IMG/VR virus record: IMGVR_UViG_3300021091_000395
Span: 1-25,000 of that record
Source of the DNA: a virus
Length of the DNA: 25,000 nucleotides
Direction: 5' to 3' (one strand)
Part shown: one piece after another, positions 6,694 to 24,999 of the stretch
Layout: the number at the start of each line of letters is the position of its first letter
Position numbering within the stretch: the first letter of the stretch is position 1
Translations under genes and position numbers: made by a program
The notes under the pieces: model-generated
What the model saw: only the letters and a program-made list of their open reading frames with translations
Told to the model about the DNA's origin: nothing
The model's database searches: none

Positions 6694-7242
6694 CTATAAT
6701 AATTCGATATCGTAATATGAAAATCTAAACGATGCATTGCTTGTAATAACACCTTCGGCATTTGATCCGACGTTAAACGAAAGTGATGACAAGTAAGTTG
6801 GAAAAATATCATGAAACTTAACACGAATTCTTGGATTGTTTTTGTTTGAATAAATTGTAAGAATTCCATCTGTATATACGGCAGGTCGACGATTATTCAT
6901 TAAACTCTGCATATAAGAAGACTTTGTTACTTTTGCTAAATCAACATATTCTTTAAAGTCGGTAGGAAATGTTGCAGCGCGAATCCAATTATGAATTTCT
7001 AACCAAGAACTTAACGTTTCATTTACAAGAAATGTTGTGCTAAAGGCATCATAAACTGCTTTTTCTCCTGGCACAAATAAATCAATAAATGGTGTAAAGC
7101 GTTGAATTTCAGTCAATGAAATTCCAGGAATAGATGCATCTTGACAAAAATATGTGACGTCAGGTAATCGATCAAAGATCATCTGAAACTTATGCGGTTG
7201 AAGAAAATCTGTATTAATTGGATTTCGTGTTAATGCTGTCAT
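6694..7242 (-). CDS. Tail-tube-fold structural protein (gp19 paralogue, possible gp54/tube-initiator role)
   Basis: This 182-residue protein shares the layout of the window's own tail tube protein gp19. Both have an N-terminal block with a PG turn (IPG, residues 38-40), a central E-x-H/E-x-W segment (LEIHNWI, 81-87), and near the end F-x-D-x-FP-x-x-LS (143-152 here, 129-138 in gp19) followed by a strand ending in an aromatic pair. Related proteins recur in marine T4-like phages just after gene 23 and are annotated as virion structural proteins. In T4 the tube fold is also used by gp54 and gp48 at the baseplate, so a tube-initiating or baseplate role is plausible but inferred. It overlaps the coiled-coil gene upstream by 29 bases. 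Confidence 0.7.
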   Translation of the reverse strand: MTALTRNPINTDFLQPHKFQMIFDRLPDVTYFCQDASIPGISLTEIQRFTPFIDLFVPGEKAVYDAFSTTFLVNETLSSWLEIHNWIRAATFPTDFKEYVDLAKVTKSSYMQSLMNNRRPAVYTDGILTIYSNKNNPRIRVKFHDIFPTYLSSLSFNVGSNAEGVITSNASFRFSYYDIELL

Positions 7243-7525: not shown

Positions 7526-8866
7526 TTACTGGTTGATATTCAACACGACGAACTTACGATAGTATACGTTTGTTCCGTTCGATAGAGTACCATTACCTGC
7601 CGCTGTTGCGAATGGATTTGCTACGAGACCATAACGTGTCTTGAAGCCAACCTTTGGCTGGTATGTTGTTGGATCAACTGCACGTACCATCTGGAGTGGA
7701 ACGTATGGGCAGTAGAACAATCCAGCGTCATAAGGAGTTACTCCCTTATAACCTACCACAACATAATCTGCACCGCTGACAGAATATGGATCAACATAGA
7801 CTTTGATGCGTCCGAAGAGCACACCAGCGAATGTGTTGCCTGTATCGTCAACTACGAGATTCGTGTTGTTTGATAGTGCTGAGTTGTAATCGAGAAGACC
7901 AGTCATTGCGAGGGCTGATGCAACGTCTGTGGAGACGATGACCATGTTGCCCTTGCCGCGACGGGTGTCTTTTGCGATTTTATTAGCTGCTTGTTCGATG
8001 CGGAAAAGAAGTGACTTATACTTCTCTGCCTGCCAACGACCAGAGGTGCCACCTGCTGCATCAGATACTGTCGAACTTGATAGGTTGACAACATTTGATG
8101 TCACGCCAGTGATACCGACATTTGCAGTTGCATAGATCGTACGAACAACTTCGCGGTTGATTTCAGCAAGAATTTCAGTTGACAAAATATTTGTCAATTC
8201 TGTTTCTGCGTCGAGACCGTGAACTGCCTTTAGATCCTGGGCTAGTTCGAGCGTGTAAGCTGCTTGCAAGCCACGTGAATTGGCTGTAACAGCAACGCGA
8301 TCGATTTGGAAGCCCATACGAGCAAGTGTTGCATCTTCAGCAAAAGCTGTTGTAAAGCCAATACCCGTATTTGCAAGACCGAACACTGCAGAATTTGCAT
8401 CACCTGGATTTACAGATGTGCTAAATGCTGTTGATGTTCCGTTACCTGAATGAGTATTTGCTTCGTTGAAGAGAGCTTCACCAGCGCGAGCTGAATCTGA
8501 TGCAAATGTTGAGCGCATAGCAAAGATAAGTCCTGTTGGACCTGTCATTGGCTGCACGCCGCAGATGTCATAAGCCATTAGATTTGGAAGAGCACGACGA
8601 ACTAGACCAATAAGAACTGGATCAAATCCTGTGATTCCTGCGTTTGTTGCACCTGAGAGACCAGAGATTCCTGCAACGCCCATGGAATTTGCTGGAGCAG
8701 CTTCCCATAGGTTTTGCATTGATCGTGTCTCTTCCATAAGAGCACGTTCCTGATTTTCTAGAACGAGTGCAGTAACTGCGCGCTTGTAAGGGTCGCTGAT
8801 TGCTGGGAGTTCTGGGTGATCAAGAACTGGTGCCCACTTTTTTGCATATGTTTCGTTAATATACAT
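7526..8866 (-). CDS. 23: gp23 major capsid protein
   Basis: This is the HK97-fold major head subunit. The 446 residues are shorter than T4 gp23 (521) and typical of marine T4-like phages. Residues 60-120 (SGLSGATNAGITGFDPVLIGLVRRALP, then MTGPTGLIFAMRS) are diagnostic for the family. The N-terminal 55 residues look like the propeptide removed by gp21: L53-W54-E55 followed by AAPAN fits the L/I-x-E cleavage rule. The start has a good ribosome binding site (GAGGA 8 bases before ATG). It lies 18 bases after the gp22 stop with no promoter between, so it is co-transcribed with gp22, and a strong terminator follows. Codon use looks more GC-rich than its neighbours, as expected for the most abundant virion protein. 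Confidence 0.98.
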   Translation of the reverse strand: MYINETYAKKWAPVLDHPELPAISDPYKRAVTALVLENQERALMEETRSMQNLWEAAPANSMGVAGISGLSGATNAGITGFDPVLIGLVRRALPNLMAYDICGVQPMTGPTGLIFAMRSTFASDSARAGEALFNEANTHSGNGTSTAFSTSVNPGDANSAVFGLANTGIGFTTAFAEDATLARMGFQIDRVAVTANSRGLQAAYTLELAQDLKAVHGLDAETELTNILSTEILAEINREVVRTIYATANVGITGVTSNVVNLSSSTVSDAAGGTSGRWQAEKYKSLLFRIEQAANKIAKDTRRGKGNMVIVSTDVASALAMTGLLDYNSALSNNTNLVVDDTGNTFAGVLFGRIKVYVDPYSVSGADYVVVGYKGVTPYDAGLFYCPYVPLQMVRAVDPTTYQPKVGFKTRYGLVANPFATAAGNGTLSNGTNVYYRKFVVLNINQ

Positions 8867-8884: not shown

Positions 8885-11800
8885 TTAGGCTTTTGGAGCC
8901 GTTTTTGATATTGATTGAACATATCGACTCATAATATTATTTGTAATTTCTACTTCTGGTTCTTCATTAAGAGCGACTCTTTGAAGTTCCTTTACCTCAC
9001 TTTTCACTTGTACTTTAGTCGGGAAGTAGTTCTCGCGTAATACAGCGAGTTTTTCTTCATAATCACCTTCTGTGGTGAACTCCACACCCTCTGCGAGTGC
9101 CTTCATTTTCTCTGCTTGAACTGCTGTGAGTCCAGAGCAGAATGATTCTGTGACAATTGCTTTCTGAACAAAGTTAAGTTGCTCTTGAAGAGAAGCAATT
9201 GTTGCGGTCTGATCTGCAACATGTTTATGTACATTCTCTACATACTCAGCTGCTGATTCAAGTTCAGATGCAAGTGTTTCTGCAACATCAACTTTTTCTT
9301 CAGGAATCTCGATGTAGTGCTCTTGGAACAATGCACGTAAACCAGAGATAAAGTCTTCAGCGAGCTCAGCACGTAGACCTGTTTCGACAGCAACTTTATT
9401 CTCTTGCATCCATTGTTCAACAACATAGTTGAGATATTCATCAACTTGCTCTGTCAATTCGTCTTTAATTTCCTCATATGCCTGTCCTAGAACTTGGTCA
9501 TTTGAAGCAACAAGCTCTTCTAGAATTTTTTCGACACGAGATGATACAGCTGCTTCGAAGATAAGTGTGGCTTTGGCGCGGAATTCTTCAGAGAGTGATT
9601 CGCCATTAAACAGCGCATCTACATCCTCTCTCATATTGCCTTGGAACTGCTTGACCGTTTCTTTAATTGCAATCATTCTTTGCTCACGAATTTGCTCTTC
9701 GGTGAGTTCAGCTGTTTTATCTTCAGCTTCTTCATCATCTTGCATATTTTGATCAGATTGCTGAGGCATTTGCTGAGGCTTTTGCTGAGGCATTTGCTGA
9801 GGCTTTTGCTGAGGCTTTTGCTGAGGCTTGAGCCGACCTTGTGGGTTCTTTCCACTTTCGCTGAGATTTTCATTCTCATTGAATGTCTCATTTGCTTCCT
9901 CTTGATTTTCTATGTCGTTCATATTCGAATCCTCAGTGCTTTCATTTGTTGTTTTACCACGAAATAAATTTAATGCCCCTTTGGCTAAATCATAAACCGC
10001 TTGTCCAGCGGCGCCAGCTTTGGCAGCGTCTCCAAAATCTTGACCAGTTAATGCGCCGCCAATACCTGTTCGGAGACCAGTACGACCAGCCCTTTGTGCA
10101 AAATCAATAAATGCATTTCCAAGACCATATTTATCATTTCGTTGATTTGAACTTGTAGTTTGATTTGCGCTAGAGGAATCTGCAGAAGCACCTCCACCAG
10201 AGGAAGAATCGGATCTAGATCTACCTCTTCTATCAATTGGATCTGAATGCCAATCCTCTAAACTGTTATATCTACCTTGAGGTCTTGCAGCGCCATCATT
10301 TCCCTGTTGACCTGCTGTTTGCTCTGGTGGACCTGATCCTGCAGGATCAGGTCGACCTGATCCTGTACCTGAACCGCCAGCACCAGTGTTGGTAGCGCCA
10401 GCACCAGTGTTGTCAGCACCAAAGTTCAGACCCTGCTGAACTAACGTTAGCATTCTATTAGCATCAGCACCAAGATTTGTACTAGCAGCTGAACCACCAT
10501 CACTCTGCGCCTGGTACGCGACTGGTTGTGTAACTGGTCCTGAACCACCAGCTGGTTTTGAACCACCAGCTGGTTTTGAACCACTGCCATCAGATCCACC
10601 AGCACCCATTCTATTAACAGCAGCAAGAGCTTGCTTAAAATCAGCATCTAATTTTAAATTGCTTTCTTTAGTTTTACCAAGGCGTTCTCTCATTTTATAT
10701 GCATAATCTGCGCCAACATTAGGATCAACTCCGAAACCTGCAGCTAGTTGTGCACCAGATCTACGAATTGATGCTCCTGTTTTGCCATAGCGATCTTCAT
10801 CACTCATTTCAGATGGTGCTTGAAATTTGGTTCCTGTCCAGAATTTGCCTTTATTTGCACCAGTTCCCCTTTCGCCATACTTCGGTGTTGCCACTGGTGC
10901 TGCCGCTGATGTTGCTGTCGTTGCAGCAGCGTTTGTTGCAGCAGCATTTAATGTTGCTGTCGTTGCAGCAGCATCTGTTTTAGCGCGTCGACGACGTGGA
11001 CCACCCCTTTCAAATAAGTTTACAACGTATTCAGCTTGATCCTCTGATAATGAATTAATAAACTGATCTAGTTGCTCTTCATTTAATGTTGACAGTTGTT
11101 GAATGATATCTGTTTCTTCAGCAGCCATTCTATTTACTCCTCTTAATCGATCTTTGTTAGCGTTAATATCTCTCATGAAATTTCTAACTGAGTCTGGATC
11201 TTCATCGTCGTTGTCTTGATTTCTATTTTGTGCCACGCGTGTTTGTATATTCTCAGAATCATCTTGAACATTTTGATTAGATTGCTGAGGCTTTTCTCGT
11301 TTTTGTGCAGCTTGATTAAGTGCTGTTGAAGCGACGCTACCAGCAAGATCTGATCCTGTTCTTTGACCAACTGCTCCACCTGCTGCACTTGTAATATTTC
11401 CAACAACTGCATCTCTCACACTGCCGCCTTGCAGTTTAGCAGAAGCAACATCGCGTGCAAGATTACCTACAAGCTCTGACCCTGTTGCTTTTGCAATACT
11501 GCCACCAATTCCTCCAGTCACTCCACCAATCGCACCAGATTTGGCTCCTGATTTTAAGCCTGCTGAAAAACTACCGCCTGACAATTTACTTTGAACACCA
11601 CCCTGAATTGCTCCCGATATGCTTTGTTGAACAACATTTTTCGCCAAGGTTTTTAAACCTGCTTTCAAACCTGCTTTTGCGACACCACTAGCAGCGGCAC
11701 CACCAGCGCCACCAGCTGCTGCACCAGCAAAACCTAATTTTCCAGCAATTGCACCACCAATTCCAGGTAAAAGAAATCCAGCCGCAATTGGTGCTAATTT

Positions 11801-12565
11801 CTTTAAAATTTTTCCAATACTTCTTTTCTTTTTAAGGACCCATTGTCCACGTTTAAATTTCCATTTCTTACCCTTGGGTGGAGGTTCTGTTGGTTTTGGA
11901 GGGCGTCCTGTATTCGGAGCTGGTGTCGGAGCTGGTGTCGGAGCTGGTGCAGAGGCGTTAACATTACCATCAGATCCACCACCAATACTTGAATTTTCAT
12001 TATCACGTGCTGCTAATTCAGCAGGATCTGTTTCTTCATCTAAAGATGCAAGTTGAATTGTGTATACTATTTCCTCTTCATTTAATCTTTCAAAAAATTT
12101 AACTAGTTCTTCATCGGATTGTGATTCAATAAAATCTTCTAGTTGATCTGCGTCCTCTTCCAACTGCATGAATTCATCTTCAGTAAATTCTCGTTGTTTA
12201 AAATCATTAATAATCGCTTCAATGAGTAATTCTTTTGCTCCATCTTCACCATATTGTTCAATTAAATTTTCCATTAAATTATTTGATTTCTCAGGCTCTT
12301 CAGATTCAGAATTTTCCTCTGACTCTTCATCCTCGGTTGGAAGTTTCTTAATTTCTTCTGCTGGAGCTCCAGGACGACCTGGTTTTGGTGTTGCATTTAT
12401 TGATTGTGCACTCATTAAACCTGGAGACACAACATCTCCAGTCATCATTTCACCACCTAAATCATTGTGTTGTATAGCAGCCATGCGAATAGGCTCTTTG
12501 CCAGCATTCGCCAATGACGCTGCAAGAATTTCAGCTGCCGACTCGTGTAATGTTTTATGAGCCAT
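8885..12565 (-). CDS. 22: gp22-type prohead scaffold, greatly expanded (1226 aa)
   Basis: In T4, gp22 (269 aa) forms the internal prohead core and is destroyed by gp21. Here both ends look like marine T4-like gp22. Residues 1-75 have LHESAAEILAASL, a DLGG box and an EEIKKLP box. Residues 955-1226 are long acidic helices, including LSEEFRAKATLIFEAA (991-1006) and a DEYLNYVVEQW segment (1042-1052). Between them lie about 850 added residues: acidic helices (95-175), Pro/Ala linker (204-232), a strongly basic patch (231-256), Gly/Ala-rich stretch (258-420), second acidic helix (494-518), Ala/Thr, Gly/Ser/Pro and Gln-rich low complexity (530-800), a second Gly/Ala stretch (816-870), and a PQQ-repeat (913-936). 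Its own ribosome binding site is weak, whereas internal ATGs at codons 480 and 882 have good ones. No frameshift is seen. It lies between gp21 and gp23 as expected. Confidence 0.88.
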   Translation of the reverse strand: MAHKTLHESAAEILAASLANAGKEPIRMAAIQHNDLGGEMMTGDVVSPGLMSAQSINATPKPGRPGAPAEEIKKLPTEDEESEENSESEEPEKSNNLMENLIEQYGEDGAKELLIEAIINDFKQREFTEDEFMQLEEDADQLEDFIESQSDEELVKFFERLNEEEIVYTIQLASLDEETDPAELAARDNENSSIGGGSDGNVNASAPAPTPAPTPAPNTGRPPKPTEPPPKGKKWKFKRGQWVLKKKRSIGKILKKLAPIAAGFLLPGIGGAIAGKLGFAGAAAGGAGGAAASGVAKAGLKAGLKTLAKNVVQQSISGAIQGGVQSKLSGGSFSAGLKSGAKSGAIGGVTGGIGGSIAKATGSELVGNLARDVASAKLQGGSVRDAVVGNITSAAGGAVGQRTGSDLAGSVASTALNQAAQKREKPQQSNQNVQDDSENIQTRVAQNRNQDNDDEDPDSVRNFMRDINANKDRLRGVNRMAAEETDIIQQLSTLNEEQLDQFINSLSEDQAEYVVNLFERGGPRRRRAKTDAAATTATLNAAATNAAATTATSAAAPVATPKYGERGTGANKGKFWTGTKFQAPSEMSDEDRYGKTGASIRRSGAQLAAGFGVDPNVGADYAYKMRERLGKTKESNLKLDADFKQALAAVNRMGAGGSDGSGSKPAGGSKPAGGSGPVTQPVAYQAQSDGGSAASTNLGADANRMLTLVQQGLNFGADNTGAGATNTGAGGSGTGSGRPDPAGSGPPEQTAGQQGNDGAARPQGRYNSLEDWHSDPIDRRGRSRSDSSSGGGASADSSSANQTTSSNQRNDKYGLGNAFIDFAQRAGRTGLRTGIGGALTGQDFGDAAKAGAAGQAVYDLAKGALNLFRGKTTNESTEDSNMNDIENQEEANETFNENENLSESGKNPQGRLKPQQKPQQKPQQMPQQKPQQMPQQSDQNMQDDEEAEDKTAELTEEQIREQRMIAIKETVKQFQGNMREDVDALFNGESLSEEFRAKATLIFEAAVSSRVEKILEELVASNDQVLGQAYEEIKDELTEQVDEYLNYVVEQWMQENKVAVETGLRAELAEDFISGLRALFQEHYIEIPEEKVDVAETLASELESAAEYVENVHKHVADQTATIASLQEQLNFVQKAIVTESFCSGLTAVQAEKMKALAEGVEFTTEGDYEEKLAVLRENYFPTKVQVKSEVKELQRVALNEEPEVEITNNIMSRYVQSISKTAPKA
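8888..9922 (-). CDS. Possible nested short scaffold from internal start at codon 882 of gp22
   Basis: An in-frame ATG at 9920-9922 is preceded, 7 bases upstream, by GAGGA (9930-9934). This resembles the spacing used by gp23, gp18 and gp20 in this window and is better than the site before the full-length gp22 start. The product would be 345 residues, the normal size of marine T4-like gp22, and would hold the PQQ repeat plus the whole helical scaffold domain. Nested scaffold genes are known elsewhere (lambda Nu3, herpesvirus UL26.5). The use of this start is inference only. The shared stop codon is at 8885-8887. Confidence 0.35.
9734..9767. repeat. 34-bp direct repeat, copy 2, inside gp22
   Basis: This matches 11258-11291 at 31 of 34 positions. 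Both copies encode PQQS(N/D)QN(V/M)QDD. The spacing is 1524 bases, exactly 508 codons, so recombination between the copies would delete or duplicate the block without shifting frame. Confidence 0.85.
9759..9830. repeat. Six tandem 12-bp units (PQQ repeat of gp22)
   Basis: TGCTGAGGC(A/T)TT occurs six times in a row on the plus strand, the last unit ending in G instead of T. On the coding strand this gives alternating KPQQ and MPQQ units (gp22 residues 913-936) immediately before the conserved scaffold domain. The units are nearly identical, suggesting recent slippage. Confidence 0.9.
10542..10577. repeat. Two tandem 18-bp units (PAGGSK repeat of gp22)
   Basis: Two identical copies of GAACCACCAGCTGGTTTT are followed by a partial third. 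They encode a GSKPAG-type linker inside the low-complexity insertion of gp22. Confidence 0.8.
11258..11291. repeat. 34-bp direct repeat, copy 1, inside gp22
   Basis: This is the partner of 9734-9767 (31/34 identical, same orientation and reading frame). It marks the end of the first architectural unit of the gp22 insertion. Confidence 0.85.
11915..11950. repeat. Three tandem 12-bp units (PAPT repeat of gp22)
   Basis: CGGAGCTGGTGT occurs three times, the last with one change at its end. It encodes the APAPTPAPTPAP linker (about residues 206-217) just before the basic and Gly/Ala-rich part of gp22. Confidence 0.85.
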
Positions 12566-12588: not shown

Positions 12589-12598
12589 TATATTTATA
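12589..12598 (-). promoter_or_regulatory. Late promoter TATAAATA upstream of gp22
   Basis: On the minus strand TATAAATATA (12598-12589) contains the exact T4 late promoter octamer, TATAAATA. It lies in the 37-base gap between gp21 and gp22. Transcription would start near 12585, about 20 bases before the gp22 ATG, and would drive gp22 and gp23 up to the terminator at 7449-7483. Confidence 0.75.
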
Positions 12599-12602
12599 AA
12601 AG

Positions 12603-13247
12603 TTATAATCTCGATAAAAAGTTTTCAAATATTTTCAAGGAGATATCGTCTAATTGCTTCTGTTTTGCAGTCTTTATTTGATTATAATATTCATTTACAT
12701 TAAATTCCTTCACAAAACCATTGTCCCAGACCCACTCTTTACCTTCCATAATGCCTTGAACAAAAGCACCTGGAGCTGATGGATCAGCTACGATATCAGC
12801 TGCAGTTGCAAGGTAAAAGTCTGGTTGTACGATATTGACTCCATCGATCATTTTAAGAGAGCCCATACCACGCGAGGATACACCAAGAGTAGCACCAGCC
12901 TCCATAAGATTCTTAGCAATTTTACCCATTGGAGTTTCAAGAACTTTTGCTTTACCCTCGAATACATTACCATTGCGCGAAATATTGGTAATCATATGAG
13001 AGACGCGCTCTAGATTAATGGTTGGTGATTCTGGATGTCCAAGTTCACCAAAAGCTCGATTCTTATCGACGTATTCTCTCATGTAACGATTGACTTCGTT
13101 TTCAAGTACCGCAACAGGATATGAACGTCCGTTTCGATTCTTTGTTTCGGCGACAAGGAATGGACCTTGAATGTATAAAGTCTTAACACCGTTTTTCTCT
13201 TCAGTGATGACTTTAATTTCTTCGACTGTTTCTGTAATAAGTTTCAT
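12603..13247 (-). CDS. 21: gp21 prohead core protease
   Basis: This serine protease is assembled inside the prohead. It cleaves capsid and core proteins after L/I-x-E sequences and then itself. The 214 residues match T4 gp21 (212). The fold landmarks are NRNGRSYP (residues 37-44), GELGHPES with probable catalytic His71, and LGVSSRG with the nucleophile serine at 124 or 125. It starts 10 bases after the preceding core gene stop, with AGGAA 7 bases before the ATG. Likely substrates in this window are gp23 (after E55), gp22, gp67 and the basic core protein upstream. Confidence 0.95.
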   Translation of the reverse strand: MKLITETVEEIKVITEEKNGVKTLYIQGPFLVAETKNRNGRSYPVAVLENEVNRYMREYVDKNRAFGELGHPESPTINLERVSHMITNISRNGNVFEGKAKVLETPMGKIAKNLMEAGATLGVSSRGMGSLKMIDGVNIVQPDFYLATAADIVADPSAPGAFVQGIMEGKEWVWDNGFVKEFNVNEYYNQIKTAKQKQLDDISLKIFENFLSRL

Positions 13248-13257
13248 TTTTTGTTTC

Positions 13258-14337
13258 CTATACTCCGAGAGCTGCTCGTCTTCTCATTGATCTTCGTCTT
13301 TTCATAAGAGCTCGAGCCATTTTTGCTTTTCTTTTAATTTTGCCACGACGTTGGCCACGTTTGCGACGAATTCTTTCTTGCATTGACATGCGCTTGAGTT
13401 TACCACCACGAATCGTATATCCTTTTACAGCAGAGACTCTTCTACGTCTTTGCACTTTACCCTTTCTTATACGAACTCTGACAACATTTGTGCGACCTTG
13501 ACGCATTATATTGCGATTTGCTTCGCTTAATGATTCTGAATTTTCTGTAACCTCTTCATGTAATCCATAATGTGCTTGACGTAAGTCTTCAGCATCTGAA
13601 GCCATGGCCATGTCTGAACTAATTTCTCCACGCTCTAAACGTCCTTGCAAATGCGCAGCTCTACGTTCTGCTTCTTCTTGTTGATCTGGTGTTAATTTGG
13701 AAGGAGGAATTAAATTAAATTGTTGTTGTTTTTCCGTTGGTACATTTTGCGCAATAGCACGACCAGAGCGTAATGGTGAATGATTCGCATCAAAGGGGAC
13801 AAAACCTTTGATAACACCTTTTGTACCAAGATTACGCATGAAGTTTTTAAGTTTTTCTCTATTTTCTTTTTTGCCTTCCTCTATCGCAATTAATGTTTTA
13901 TATAAGTTTAATTTATGTGTAGCAATTTCATTTATTAATAAAAATATTTCTTCTTTTATATCTTCACGACTTCTATAATTTTTTAATTCTCGAGTCTTAA
14001 CGATGCGTGGATTTAACGCTTGCATTGTCTTAATACGTTTTTCATCTTCATGATTAAATGGTTCATCTTTATCATTTTCTTCATCATCTACATTCGTATC
14101 TAATTCAGAATTATCTTTTTGAGTTGAAATTTTTGCAGGTTGCTCAGCTAAAACTTTACCTAAAACATCACGTGATACAGCGTTAGCCAAATCAACACTA
14201 GTATCCGTTGGTTTTATACCAAGTTTTCTTTTTTGTTCCATCTCTTTTTGCATAATCGATCTTTTTTGATTTGCACCTTGCCTCTGCTTAAAATCGGAAT
14301 CGCCGCGATCTTCGAATTTTTCTTGATCAACATTCAT
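13258..14337 (-). CDS. Prohead core-region protein with very basic C-terminus (position of T4 gene 68)
   Basis: This 359-residue protein is charged and low in hydrophobic content. The N-terminal 100 residues are Lys/Asp/Glu-rich and probably disordered, and residues 120-170 are helical. Residues 277-359 hold runs such as KVQRRRR and RRKRGQRRGK, with IRGGKLKRMS between them. By my count, 37 of the last 87 residues are Arg or Lys and one is acidic. L270-S271-E272 just before this tail fits a gp21 site, so the tail may be released to bind packaged DNA. A similar basic tail occurs in core-region proteins of other T4-like phages. The location between gp67 and gp21 is that of T4 gp68, but T4 gp68 is only 141 residues, so homology is uncertain. 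It overlaps the preceding gene by 4 bases. Confidence 0.72.
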   Translation of the reverse strand: MNVDQEKFEDRGDSDFKQRQGANQKRSIMQKEMEQKRKLGIKPTDTSVDLANAVSRDVLGKVLAEQPAKISTQKDNSELDTNVDDEENDKDEPFNHEDEKRIKTMQALNPRIVKTRELKNYRSREDIKEEIFLLINEIATHKLNLYKTLIAIEEGKKENREKLKNFMRNLGTKGVIKGFVPFDANHSPLRSGRAIAQNVPTEKQQQFNLIPPSKLTPDQQEEAERRAAHLQGRLERGEISSDMAMASDAEDLRQAHYGLHEEVTENSESLSEANRNIMRQGRTNVVRVRIRKGKVQRRRRVSAVKGYTIRGGKLKRMSMQERIRRKRGQRRGKIKRKAKMARALMKRRRSMRRRAALGV

Positions 14338-15251: not shown

Positions 15252-15261
15252 AATATTTATA
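15252..15261 (-). promoter_or_regulatory. Late promoter octamer TATAAATA before gp67
   Basis: On the minus strand TATAAATATT (15261-15252) contains the exact T4 late octamer. If transcription starts about 6 bases downstream, it would fall at about 15248, cutting into the GGAG used by gp67. It may therefore serve the genes after gp67 better than gp67 itself. Confidence 0.55.
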
Positions 15262-24252: not shown

Positions 24253-24999
24253 TTATTCGATCAATCTACCCTCTCGAGATGTATAAATTCGATCAGGATC
24301 CATGTGAGCAAACTGCTCCCAATTAGGCTCGCCCTCTAATATTCTTTTACCAGTCGTCTCCTCGCCGATATGCTCAATTATATTTTCGCCTCGAGAATTT
24401 TTTAATGTGGCAGAATACATCTGATGAAAATGGTCTAGATAAACCATTATCATTCCTTCATTAATATTAAACTTCCAATAATCTTGGAATGGATATTCGA
24501 TAATATTCTTACGATATAAACTAAAGATTATCGGAAAAGTCTTTGTATTTTTGCTATAGTAAAATTGCTTGAATTGCGTATCGCTCGATTCAATAGTTGA
24601 TGGCTTCTCATTAAAGTACCATGGTTGTCGTTGTAAAACAACCGAGGCAATTTTAGATTCTGACTCGAGACATTCAATCAGATCGTCGACTTTAATTGGT
24701 TCTTTTAGAATTACGTCATCCTCTTGATGAAGAACGTAATCTACATCCATACCTCGGAGCGAGGAGAAGAAATCCGACCAATTTACCGATAGTCCTTTAT
24801 TAACTGAATTTCTCCATATCTCAAATCTATAGCGTTTACCAATCAAATCAAAGATCGCATCATTGCGTGTTCTTGGATAATCATCGACAATAATCTTTCG
24901 AACCTCATGATTTCCATAGTCTAAATTAGACAATGAGTTAAGTGTCGGAAACAGATATCGAATCCTGTTGCAAGAAAAGATTACATGAAGAATCTTCAT
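24253..24999 (-). CDS. GT-A-type glycosyltransferase (family 2-like)
   Basis: This 248-residue enzyme is predicted to transfer a sugar from a nucleotide-sugar donor. The start KILHVIFSCNR is the typical first strand of GT-A folds. VDDYP (38-42) and a NKGLSVNW segment (67-74) fit nucleotide binding, and HQEDDVIL (91-98) supplies the acidic DxD-like metal site. Similar proteins occur next to gene 13 in marine T4-like phages. The acceptor is unknown: virion glycoprotein, phage DNA and host surface glycan are all possible. T4 DNA glucosyltransferases have a different (GT-B) fold, so DNA modification is less likely. The ATG lies one base from the window edge, so its ribosome binding site and a possible earlier start cannot be checked. 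Confidence 0.75.
   Translation of the reverse strand: MKILHVIFSCNRIRYLFPTLNSLSNLDYGNHEVRKIIVDDYPRTRNDAIFDLIGKRYRFEIWRNSVNKGLSVNWSDFFSSLRGMDVDYVLHQEDDVILKEPIKVDDLIECLESESKIASVVLQRQPWYFNEKPSTIESSDTQFKQFYYSKNTKTFPIIFSLYRKNIIEYPFQDYWKFNINEGMIMVYLDHFHQMYSATLKNSRGENIIEHIGEETTGKRILEGEPNWEQFAHMDPDRIYTSREGRLIE

Follow-up and report, generated by a model that had tools for sequence, protein, structure and literature searches.

The stretch of DNA analysed here, hereafter the window, comprises 25,000 nucleotides (positions 1 to 25,000) of the virus record IMGVR_UViG_3300021091_000395 of IMG/VR and carries a T4-like head gene cluster on its minus strand, the strand to which all the features given below belong. 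In this cluster, gene 22, which encodes the scaffold protein gp22, occupies positions 8885-12565 as a single uninterrupted open reading frame (ORF) of 1226 amino acids (aa); the plus-strand reading of the same interval is full of stops. The genes follow the order gp20, a gp67-like ORF, two ORFs at the gp68 position (g241 and g359), gp21, gp22 and gp23, and comparison with T4 and with related phages identified this arrangement as the gp20-67-(68 position)-21-22-23 synteny of a T4-type gp22. The gp21 prohead protease (Peptidase_S77) is encoded at 12603-13247 and the major capsid protein gp23 at 7526-8866.

Both ends of the giant protein are those of a T4-like gp22. The C-terminus matched the Pfam family PF25623 (T4_CASP) over residues 978-1218 (8912-9634; E = 5.9e-60), which constitute the scaffold core domain, and phrog_237 over residues 888-1222 (E = 8e-70). 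Residues 1-75 (12341-12565) matched the gp22 N-terminus of sister phages (M.KTLSESAAEIL.AS...DLGG), and a tblastn search with residues 1-96 against 50,697 phage records gave no match at E ≤ 1. The N-terminus and the core are about 880 residues apart, about 800 more than in relatives. With respect to its size, gp22 has 269 aa in T4, 306 in HTVC008M, 340 in S-H38, 392 in Melnitz-3 and 410 in Mosig, 360-450 aa in the nearest lineages with gp22 of ordinary length (L044-L050, L052 and L053; hereafter, normal gp22s) and 320-531 aa among the complete normal gp22s, a range outside which the 1226-aa product falls. A first-pass annotation of this sequence had described a T4-like scaffold gene expanded about four-fold by a central insertion, with no frameshift. 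The identity of the two ends and the intact frame were corroborated; the expansion is about 4.6-fold with respect to T4 but about three-fold with respect to its own relatives, which are the fairer yardstick.

The region between both ends is built of modules, and all the elements listed in that annotation (acidic helices, Pro/Ala linker, basic patch, Gly/Ala stretches and Gln repeats) were found in it. A first acidic helical module (residues 76-190, 11996-12340, net charge −35) is followed by a Pro/Ala linker with a basic patch (residues 191-257, 11795-11995, net charge +13), a Gly/Ala-rich module (residues 258-430, 11276-11794), a second acidic helical module (residues 480-522, 11000-11128; STLNEEQLDQFINSLSED) and a set of fast-evolving Ala/Gly/Ser linkers (residues 523-830, 10076-10999), where a KYGERG / MSDEDRYGKTGA patch is common with lineage L005. 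A second Gly/Ala-rich segment (residues 831-872, 9950-10075) and a Gln/Pro linker then lead to the core. The most hydrophobic stretch, residues 256-282, is the sole one in the window giant with a mean hydropathy above 1.3. Such a stretch was present in all seven giants examined (19-residue mean hydropathy of 1.41-1.88), and the maximum among 77 normal gp22s was 1.27. The insert contains short tandem repeats, and blastp self-comparison revealed no internal repeat in the giant protein. In addition, one acidic EEL helix in the style of the giants is present in each of the normal-length gp22s of L052 and L053 (LTEEEMDEYLDSLSEEELEALAAEVESL in L052). Because of this similar helix, the acidic modules may have arisen by multiplication of segments native to gp22.

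The comparison of the window with L005 gave ratios of nonsynonymous to synonymous divergence (dN/dS) of about 0.25 for acidic module 1 and of 0.20 for the core. In the remaining parts of the insert they were 0.40-1.16: the Gly/Ala segments had 0.40-0.52, several linkers 0.7-1.2 and acidic module 2, on few changes, 1.0. The synonymous divergence (dS) from L005:3736-7254 ranged from 0.04 in the basic linker to 1.7 in the Gly/Ser linker, and was 0.07 in gp23 and 0.35 in gp21. These jumps between segments make the gene look like a recombination mosaic and point to exchange within the head cluster. The insert could also be a neutral or low-complexity expansion that has no role as cargo and is tolerated since the scaffold is removed. 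Such an expansion would account for the insert parts whose dN/dS is 0.8-1.2 (including acidic module 2, on its few changes), for the spread of complete lengths (1112-1388 aa), for the tandem repeats and for the lack of convincing relatives in Pfam or among solved structures. It is nevertheless improbable, given that acidic module 1 is constrained, that the order acidic 1, Gly/Ala, acidic 2 was retained in seven aligned inserts, that the hydrophobic segment of all seven giants exceeds every one of the 77 normal values, and that every member of this clade in the tree described below still has the insert.

The giant gp22 is a lineage trait of one clade of uncultured T4-like phages. It is encoded in 24 records including the window; the core domain is reached in 18 of them, and the other six end earlier, in one case after 134 residues. 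Searches with the core, with acidic module 2, with the N-terminus and with the hydrophobic module recovered the diverged giants. Several records are near-copies, both counts include the window and its near-identical contigs, and nine variants were aligned. The other complete giant ORFs have 1172, 1112, 1196, 1200, 1201, 1202, 1388, 1235, 1231 and 1146 aa, and there are open ones besides. Four records, the window included, are near-identical: the other three encode a protein identical to that of the window and differ from it by 1, 2 and 34 bases over 9.8, 15.7 and 11.5 kb, respectively. One of them has its first base in common with the window and possibly represents a second assembly of the same virus. 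Given these few differences and the shared start base, the four were considered to represent the same virus population. L002 is the contig with 34 differences in 11.5 kb. Of the first six noted, five cluster at 7153-7168, near the end of that contig, and may be an assembly end effect.

A scan with the core domain confirmed 594 relatives, from which the best 80 loci were kept, a selection hence biased to close ones. Among these 80, 72 ORFs were complete, with a median of 404 aa, and two exceeded 600 aa, both of the giant family; lengths were counted from the first start codon, so a few are over-long. The core-domain tree had 83 members (8 from giants, 70 from normals and 5 references) once six loci and exact copies had been dropped, and in it the giants formed one clade with support of 100/100 within the normal relatives of 360-450 aa. 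Its sister was the normal L044 (408 aa), with L045-L050 next, and no case of insert loss was found inside the clade. The nearest phage records by gp23 showed 54-56% identity, and the four annotated ones that were opened have gp22s of 306-410 aa. Because normal relatives have the same N-terminus, the insertion must be placed between the old N-terminus and the old core. The fusion of a separate upstream gene with gp22 was rejected, since the normal gp22 N-terminus is still at the front of the giant. An assembly artefact or a chimeric contig, which the first-pass annotation had named as a possible refutation, has a negligible probability, because giant gp22s are carried by 24 records, with nine aligned variants, in a single frame and in one clade. 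Neither were the modules of the insert seen as separate genes, its other suggested refutation: in the loci recovered through them, some of which are on contigs that end inside the gp22 ORF, the modules lay within that ORF.

The giant gene also contains a conserved internal site at codon Met882. Its ATG (9920-9922) is preceded by the ribosome-binding site (RBS) core TGAGG (9931-9935), with eight bases between them. Initiation at this ATG would give a short gp22 of 345 aa (8885-9922, stop included), which is within the normal size range and, like the long product, includes the whole PF25623 domain; for the other complete ORFs, the predicted short product measures 285-302 aa. Upstream of the core, each of the 18 giant records that extend to it has exactly one in-frame TGAGG-N8-ATG, in the homologous place; such a site was found in only one of the 77 normal gp22s, a few of which are truncated at the 5' end. 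In the nine aligned giants, it occurred once per ORF, always in frame and never antisense. The encoded peptides vary (EDSN, EESN, EELH and EGQT) and the 8-base spacer appears in seven versions; TGAGG and ATG are unchanged. E878 and M882 are the sole invariant residues between 864 and 898 and, among the nine invariant Glu columns of the insert, that of Glu 878 is the only one with GAG throughout, a codon with a share of 22-32% of the Glu codons in the six giants counted. The pairing of the internal site with the anti-Shine-Dalgarno sequence was calculated as −5.9 to −6.2 kcal/mol, and that of the gp23 start of the window as −6.1. The RBS of the latter (ACTGAGG-N9-ATG) has the same TGAGG core, which is located nine or ten bases from the gp23 ATG in the readable giant records and in the sister L044. 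Finally, the RNA around the internal ATG was less structured than the gene average in the seven lineages compared, at or below the 10th percentile in five of them, with folding percentiles of 0.02-0.19 in six. The conservation of this TGAGG-ATG suggests, at the level of sequence, a start that gives an ordinary-size gp22. The normal gp22 with the same motif, that of L100 (489 aa), has it at residue 158; a 332-aa product would result, and the site is possibly an independent internal start.

The reading frame, its homologues in a single clade, the conserved internal RBS with its ATG and the conserved promoter motif are visible in the sequences themselves and, on this basis, we propose with a probability of about 0.6 that gene 22 of this clade is a nested two-product scaffold gene. 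The mRNA would arise from a predicted late promoter: the T4-type late motif TATAAATA is located at 12591-12598, and lies 32-33 nucleotides upstream of the giant start in seven of the seven lineages compared. The window contains two exact matches to it, a number not above chance, and it is the position before the giant start that is conserved; the other copy (15254-15261) is immediately upstream of the gp67-like ORF. In the seven lineages, the part of the ORF that precedes the internal start contains no TATAAATA, so that there is no support for a late promoter serving the short form alone. We infer that two products are made from this mRNA. Ribosomes initiating at codon 1 would yield the 1226-aa long form, and those initiating at Met882, behind the internal TGAGG, the 345-aa short form, which would supply the bulk scaffold. 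The long form would join the short one via their common C-terminal core, and its acidic helices, basic segments and Gly/Ala-rich hydrophobic segments would thereby enter the prohead. Cutting by gp21 at the L/I-x-E sites of the N-terminus, of acidic module 1 and of the part that follows it would produce fragments that could be retained in the head and maybe ejected with the DNA.

With regard to this cleavage, gp21 is described to cut after L/I-X-E, and T4 gp22 to be cut into fragments, in the available text of PMC9026906. L/I-x-E is invariant in the nine giants at residues 6 (LHE|S), 101, 135, 161 and 175, as well as at many places of the core. Since such sites flank the central part at the N-terminus and module 1 on one side and in the core on the other, gp21 could free it. 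The predicted N-terminal site, LHE|S (residues 6-9), is present in all nine aligned giants within a propeptide-like M.HK(S/T)LHE|S, and normal gp22s have a similar one. The pattern [LIVMF]-x-E-[ASTG] occurred within the first 32 residues in 63 of 75 gp22s, with a background expectation of 0.46 per protein.

Several observations weigh against the nested gene. The 18 giant records are not independent, because they form one clade and several are near-copies, and the predicted short form is without the conserved gp22 N-terminus. The Shine-Dalgarno (SD) pairing of the giant's own start (−5.9 to −6.9 kcal/mol) is equal to or stronger than that of the internal site in six of seven lineages, the window, with −3.3, being the only one where it is weaker; therefore, the sequence does not show the long form to be minor. 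Five more invariant Glu columns (957-1190), nearer the C-terminus, are also all GAG, so the codon argument alone is modest, and the internal site of L005, with a folding percentile of 0.52, is not unusually unstructured. When a looser SD rule was applied, 18 of the 77 normal gp22s, including that of the near relative L045, had some in-frame internal candidate; a number of these lie near the N-terminus and probably reflect a start annotated too far upstream, and by chance an SD-like sequence stands ahead of 9-15% of codons. The L/I-x-E sites are weak evidence of cleavage, because this motif is common in acidic helices. Lastly, the AlphaFold model of residues 84-545, a prediction recommended in the first-pass annotation, was uninformative (mean predicted local distance difference test score of 40.4).

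It must be noted that the size of the long form poses a packing problem, for which the first-pass annotation had offered three solutions: an insertion that is minor, cleaved or a cargo. The internal RBS, which it had missed, adds a further answer, namely a scaffold of normal size. T4 packs about 580 gp22 copies according to the available part of PMC9958956, and the mature T4 head holds about 18 MDa of internal protein according to that of PMC7697877. By simple arithmetic, a 130-kDa long form at the T4 copy number of about 580 would represent about 75 MDa, a difficulty that a short form starting at Met882 would remove. If the long form were instead the only scaffold, with its insert digested by gp21 and the internal TGAGG-ATG acting as a conserved peptide or cleavage signal, the good RBS of the long ORF in most lineages, its conserved promoter motif and the absence of the internal start from most normal gp22s would be readily understood; the cutting of T4 gp22 into fragments (available text of PMC9026906) and the Asn-Glu just upstream of the internal site in seven of nine giants would agree with it as well. 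However, about 75 MDa means a very crowded prohead, and it is the SD bases and not the peptide that are conserved, EDSN, EELH and EGQT all keeping the TGAGG and ATG spacing. For these reasons we hold this alternative to be unlikely, albeit the strongest of those against which the nested gene was weighed. The alternatives considered in this work overlap and their odds need not sum to one.

The origin of the inserted modules was sought in databases, as had been recommended. The window insert had no match in the 50,697 phage records at E ≤ 10, that of L034 had none at E ≤ 1, and a scan of genome contigs yielded no relative. When seven inserts were scanned against Pfam and PHROG, no convincing family emerged, and there were no convincing relatives among solved structures either. 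Three kinds of matches were discarded: that to phrog_167 (tape measure; E = 3.8e-7 for L032), which is spread over the Gly/Ala-rich region and probably reflects composition; weaker PHROG matches, such as phrog_5115 (E = 0.0022 for L025), which were unconvincing; and profile matches to protein A chains (best E = 1.4e-5), judged to be a chance helix resemblance.

The insert of L036 gave weak matches to 23 phage records, and the 20 matches listed were all via query positions 477-549. The module concerned (approximately residues 577-650 of its gp22) is hydrophobic and Gly-rich, and appears to be shared with endolysin/peptidase-type proteins of cyanophages and of other T4-like phages, some of which adjoin a baseplate hub gene. 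In annotated records, the matched stretch belongs to lysin, peptidase or unnamed proteins (tblastn E = 0.03). The module also matched phrog_18972 (E = 1.5e-5) and phrog_34252 (endolysin, E = 2.4e-5), and an hhalign comparison gave a probability of 97%; Gly/Ala-rich composition can inflate scores of this kind. No lysin-module match was found for the window insert in the Pfam and PHROG scans, and the hydrophobic module of L134 gave two weak matches only (E = 0.4-0.6). The modules of the giants are therefore not entirely without known counterparts, given the EEL helix of L052 and L053 and the L036 module.

The resemblance of the L036 module to virion lysin modules points to the cell envelope. In this regard, the clade might use its scaffold as a delivery vehicle: besides the plain scaffold, gene 22 would encode scaffold-tagged, rapidly remodelled membrane-active modules, which would enter the prohead, be released by gp21 and pass into the host by ejection to help DNA entry or take-over. 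Scaffold fusion would in that case offer a second way to obtain internal head proteins, in addition to the capsid targeting sequence. We put this forward tentatively, as something that may well not be the case; an ejected membrane-active cargo is possible, and what it would do is a guess.

A second gene of the prohead cluster is also enlarged. The ORF g359 (13258-14337), with a very basic C-terminus, is located between the 241-aa ORF and gp21, adjoining the latter. Its length is 302-401 aa in the giant clade; it could also be identified in eight normals, with 91-142 aa, one of these eight ORFs being open at the 5' end. The part in common is mainly the basic C-terminus (GYTIRGGK.KRM...SLRKR.SLGL). 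It is likely a second prohead-core or internal head protein, and the joint expansion of two prohead-cluster genes suggests that the whole core has been remodelled. This enlargement of g359 would also suit a long scaffold that sets a larger or differently shaped head, as a ruler or through core volume, and carries no cargo. In a ruler, it would be odd to find hydrophobic modules, one of which resembles modules of virion lysins, and the longest giant contig met has 49 kb, so that these partial genomes give no guide to head size; we consider a ruler quite improbable. As for the rest of the window, the ORFs past gp23 were assigned to uvsY, uvsW, gp55, gp47 and gp46 on the basis of their order and resemblance to relatives, and an ORF of glycosyl transferase family 2 (PF00535, E = 1.5e-6) at 24253-24999 runs to the window end.

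The giant gp22 shares with T4 gp22 (PF25623, phrog_237) the C-terminal core, the position between gp21 and gp23 and an N-terminal site of the L/I-x-E|(A/S) type, which in T4 is MLKEQLIAE|A. T4 gp22 is cut at a Glu-Ala bond, as stated in the available text of PMC9026906, and this bond is presumably the one in MLKEQLIAE|A. The giant gp22 differs from T4 gp22, of 269 aa, in the roughly 880 residues from the N-terminus to the core and in the conserved internal start. The fate proposed for the insert, that is, entry into the prohead core, cutting by gp21 and possibly ejection, resembles that of the T4 internal head proteins IPI-IPIII and Alt; such proteins are targeted to the core, processed by gp21 and ejected with the DNA (available text of PMC9026906). 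In T4, however, targeting is by a short capsid targeting propeptide, whereas a covalent scaffold domain is proposed here. None of these families turned up in the Pfam and PHROG scans of the inserts, which were not a direct search for them. In the head of the giant phage SPN3US, more than 40 MDa of ejection proteins are packed, some of them processed by a gp21-like protease (available text of PMC7411985), an indication that tens of MDa of ejected protein can fit in a head. Its abundant ejection proteins gp53 and gp54 have N-terminal propeptides, and no scaffold fusion is described in that portion of PMC7411985.

Regarding the nested arrangement, the T4 record annotates internal translation initiation in gene 21, the neighbour of gene 22. 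This is likewise a head-cluster gene with an annotated internal start, but it encodes a protease and not a scaffold, and only 22 codons are skipped. In lambda, the gene of the Nu3 scaffold is nested in frame in that of the C protease. As in the giant gene 22, one gene and one frame would serve both products, with the scaffold as the C-terminal part of the long one; the long product contains a protease in lambda, and acidic and hydrophobic modules in the giant gp22. No description of a giant gp22 or of a nested gp22 start was found in the open-licence literature searched.

Small size, a transient presence and a generic role are the norm among scaffold proteins. A scaffold of 1112-1388 aa with a conserved internal start, as in this T4-like lineage, suggests that large modules can be added to it with the ordinary product kept. 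The lineage provides a concrete test of the tolerance of the T4-type core to foreign proteins and of natural capsid loading by scaffold fusion, with a bearing on the evolution of ejected proteins and on capsid loading with laboratory T4.

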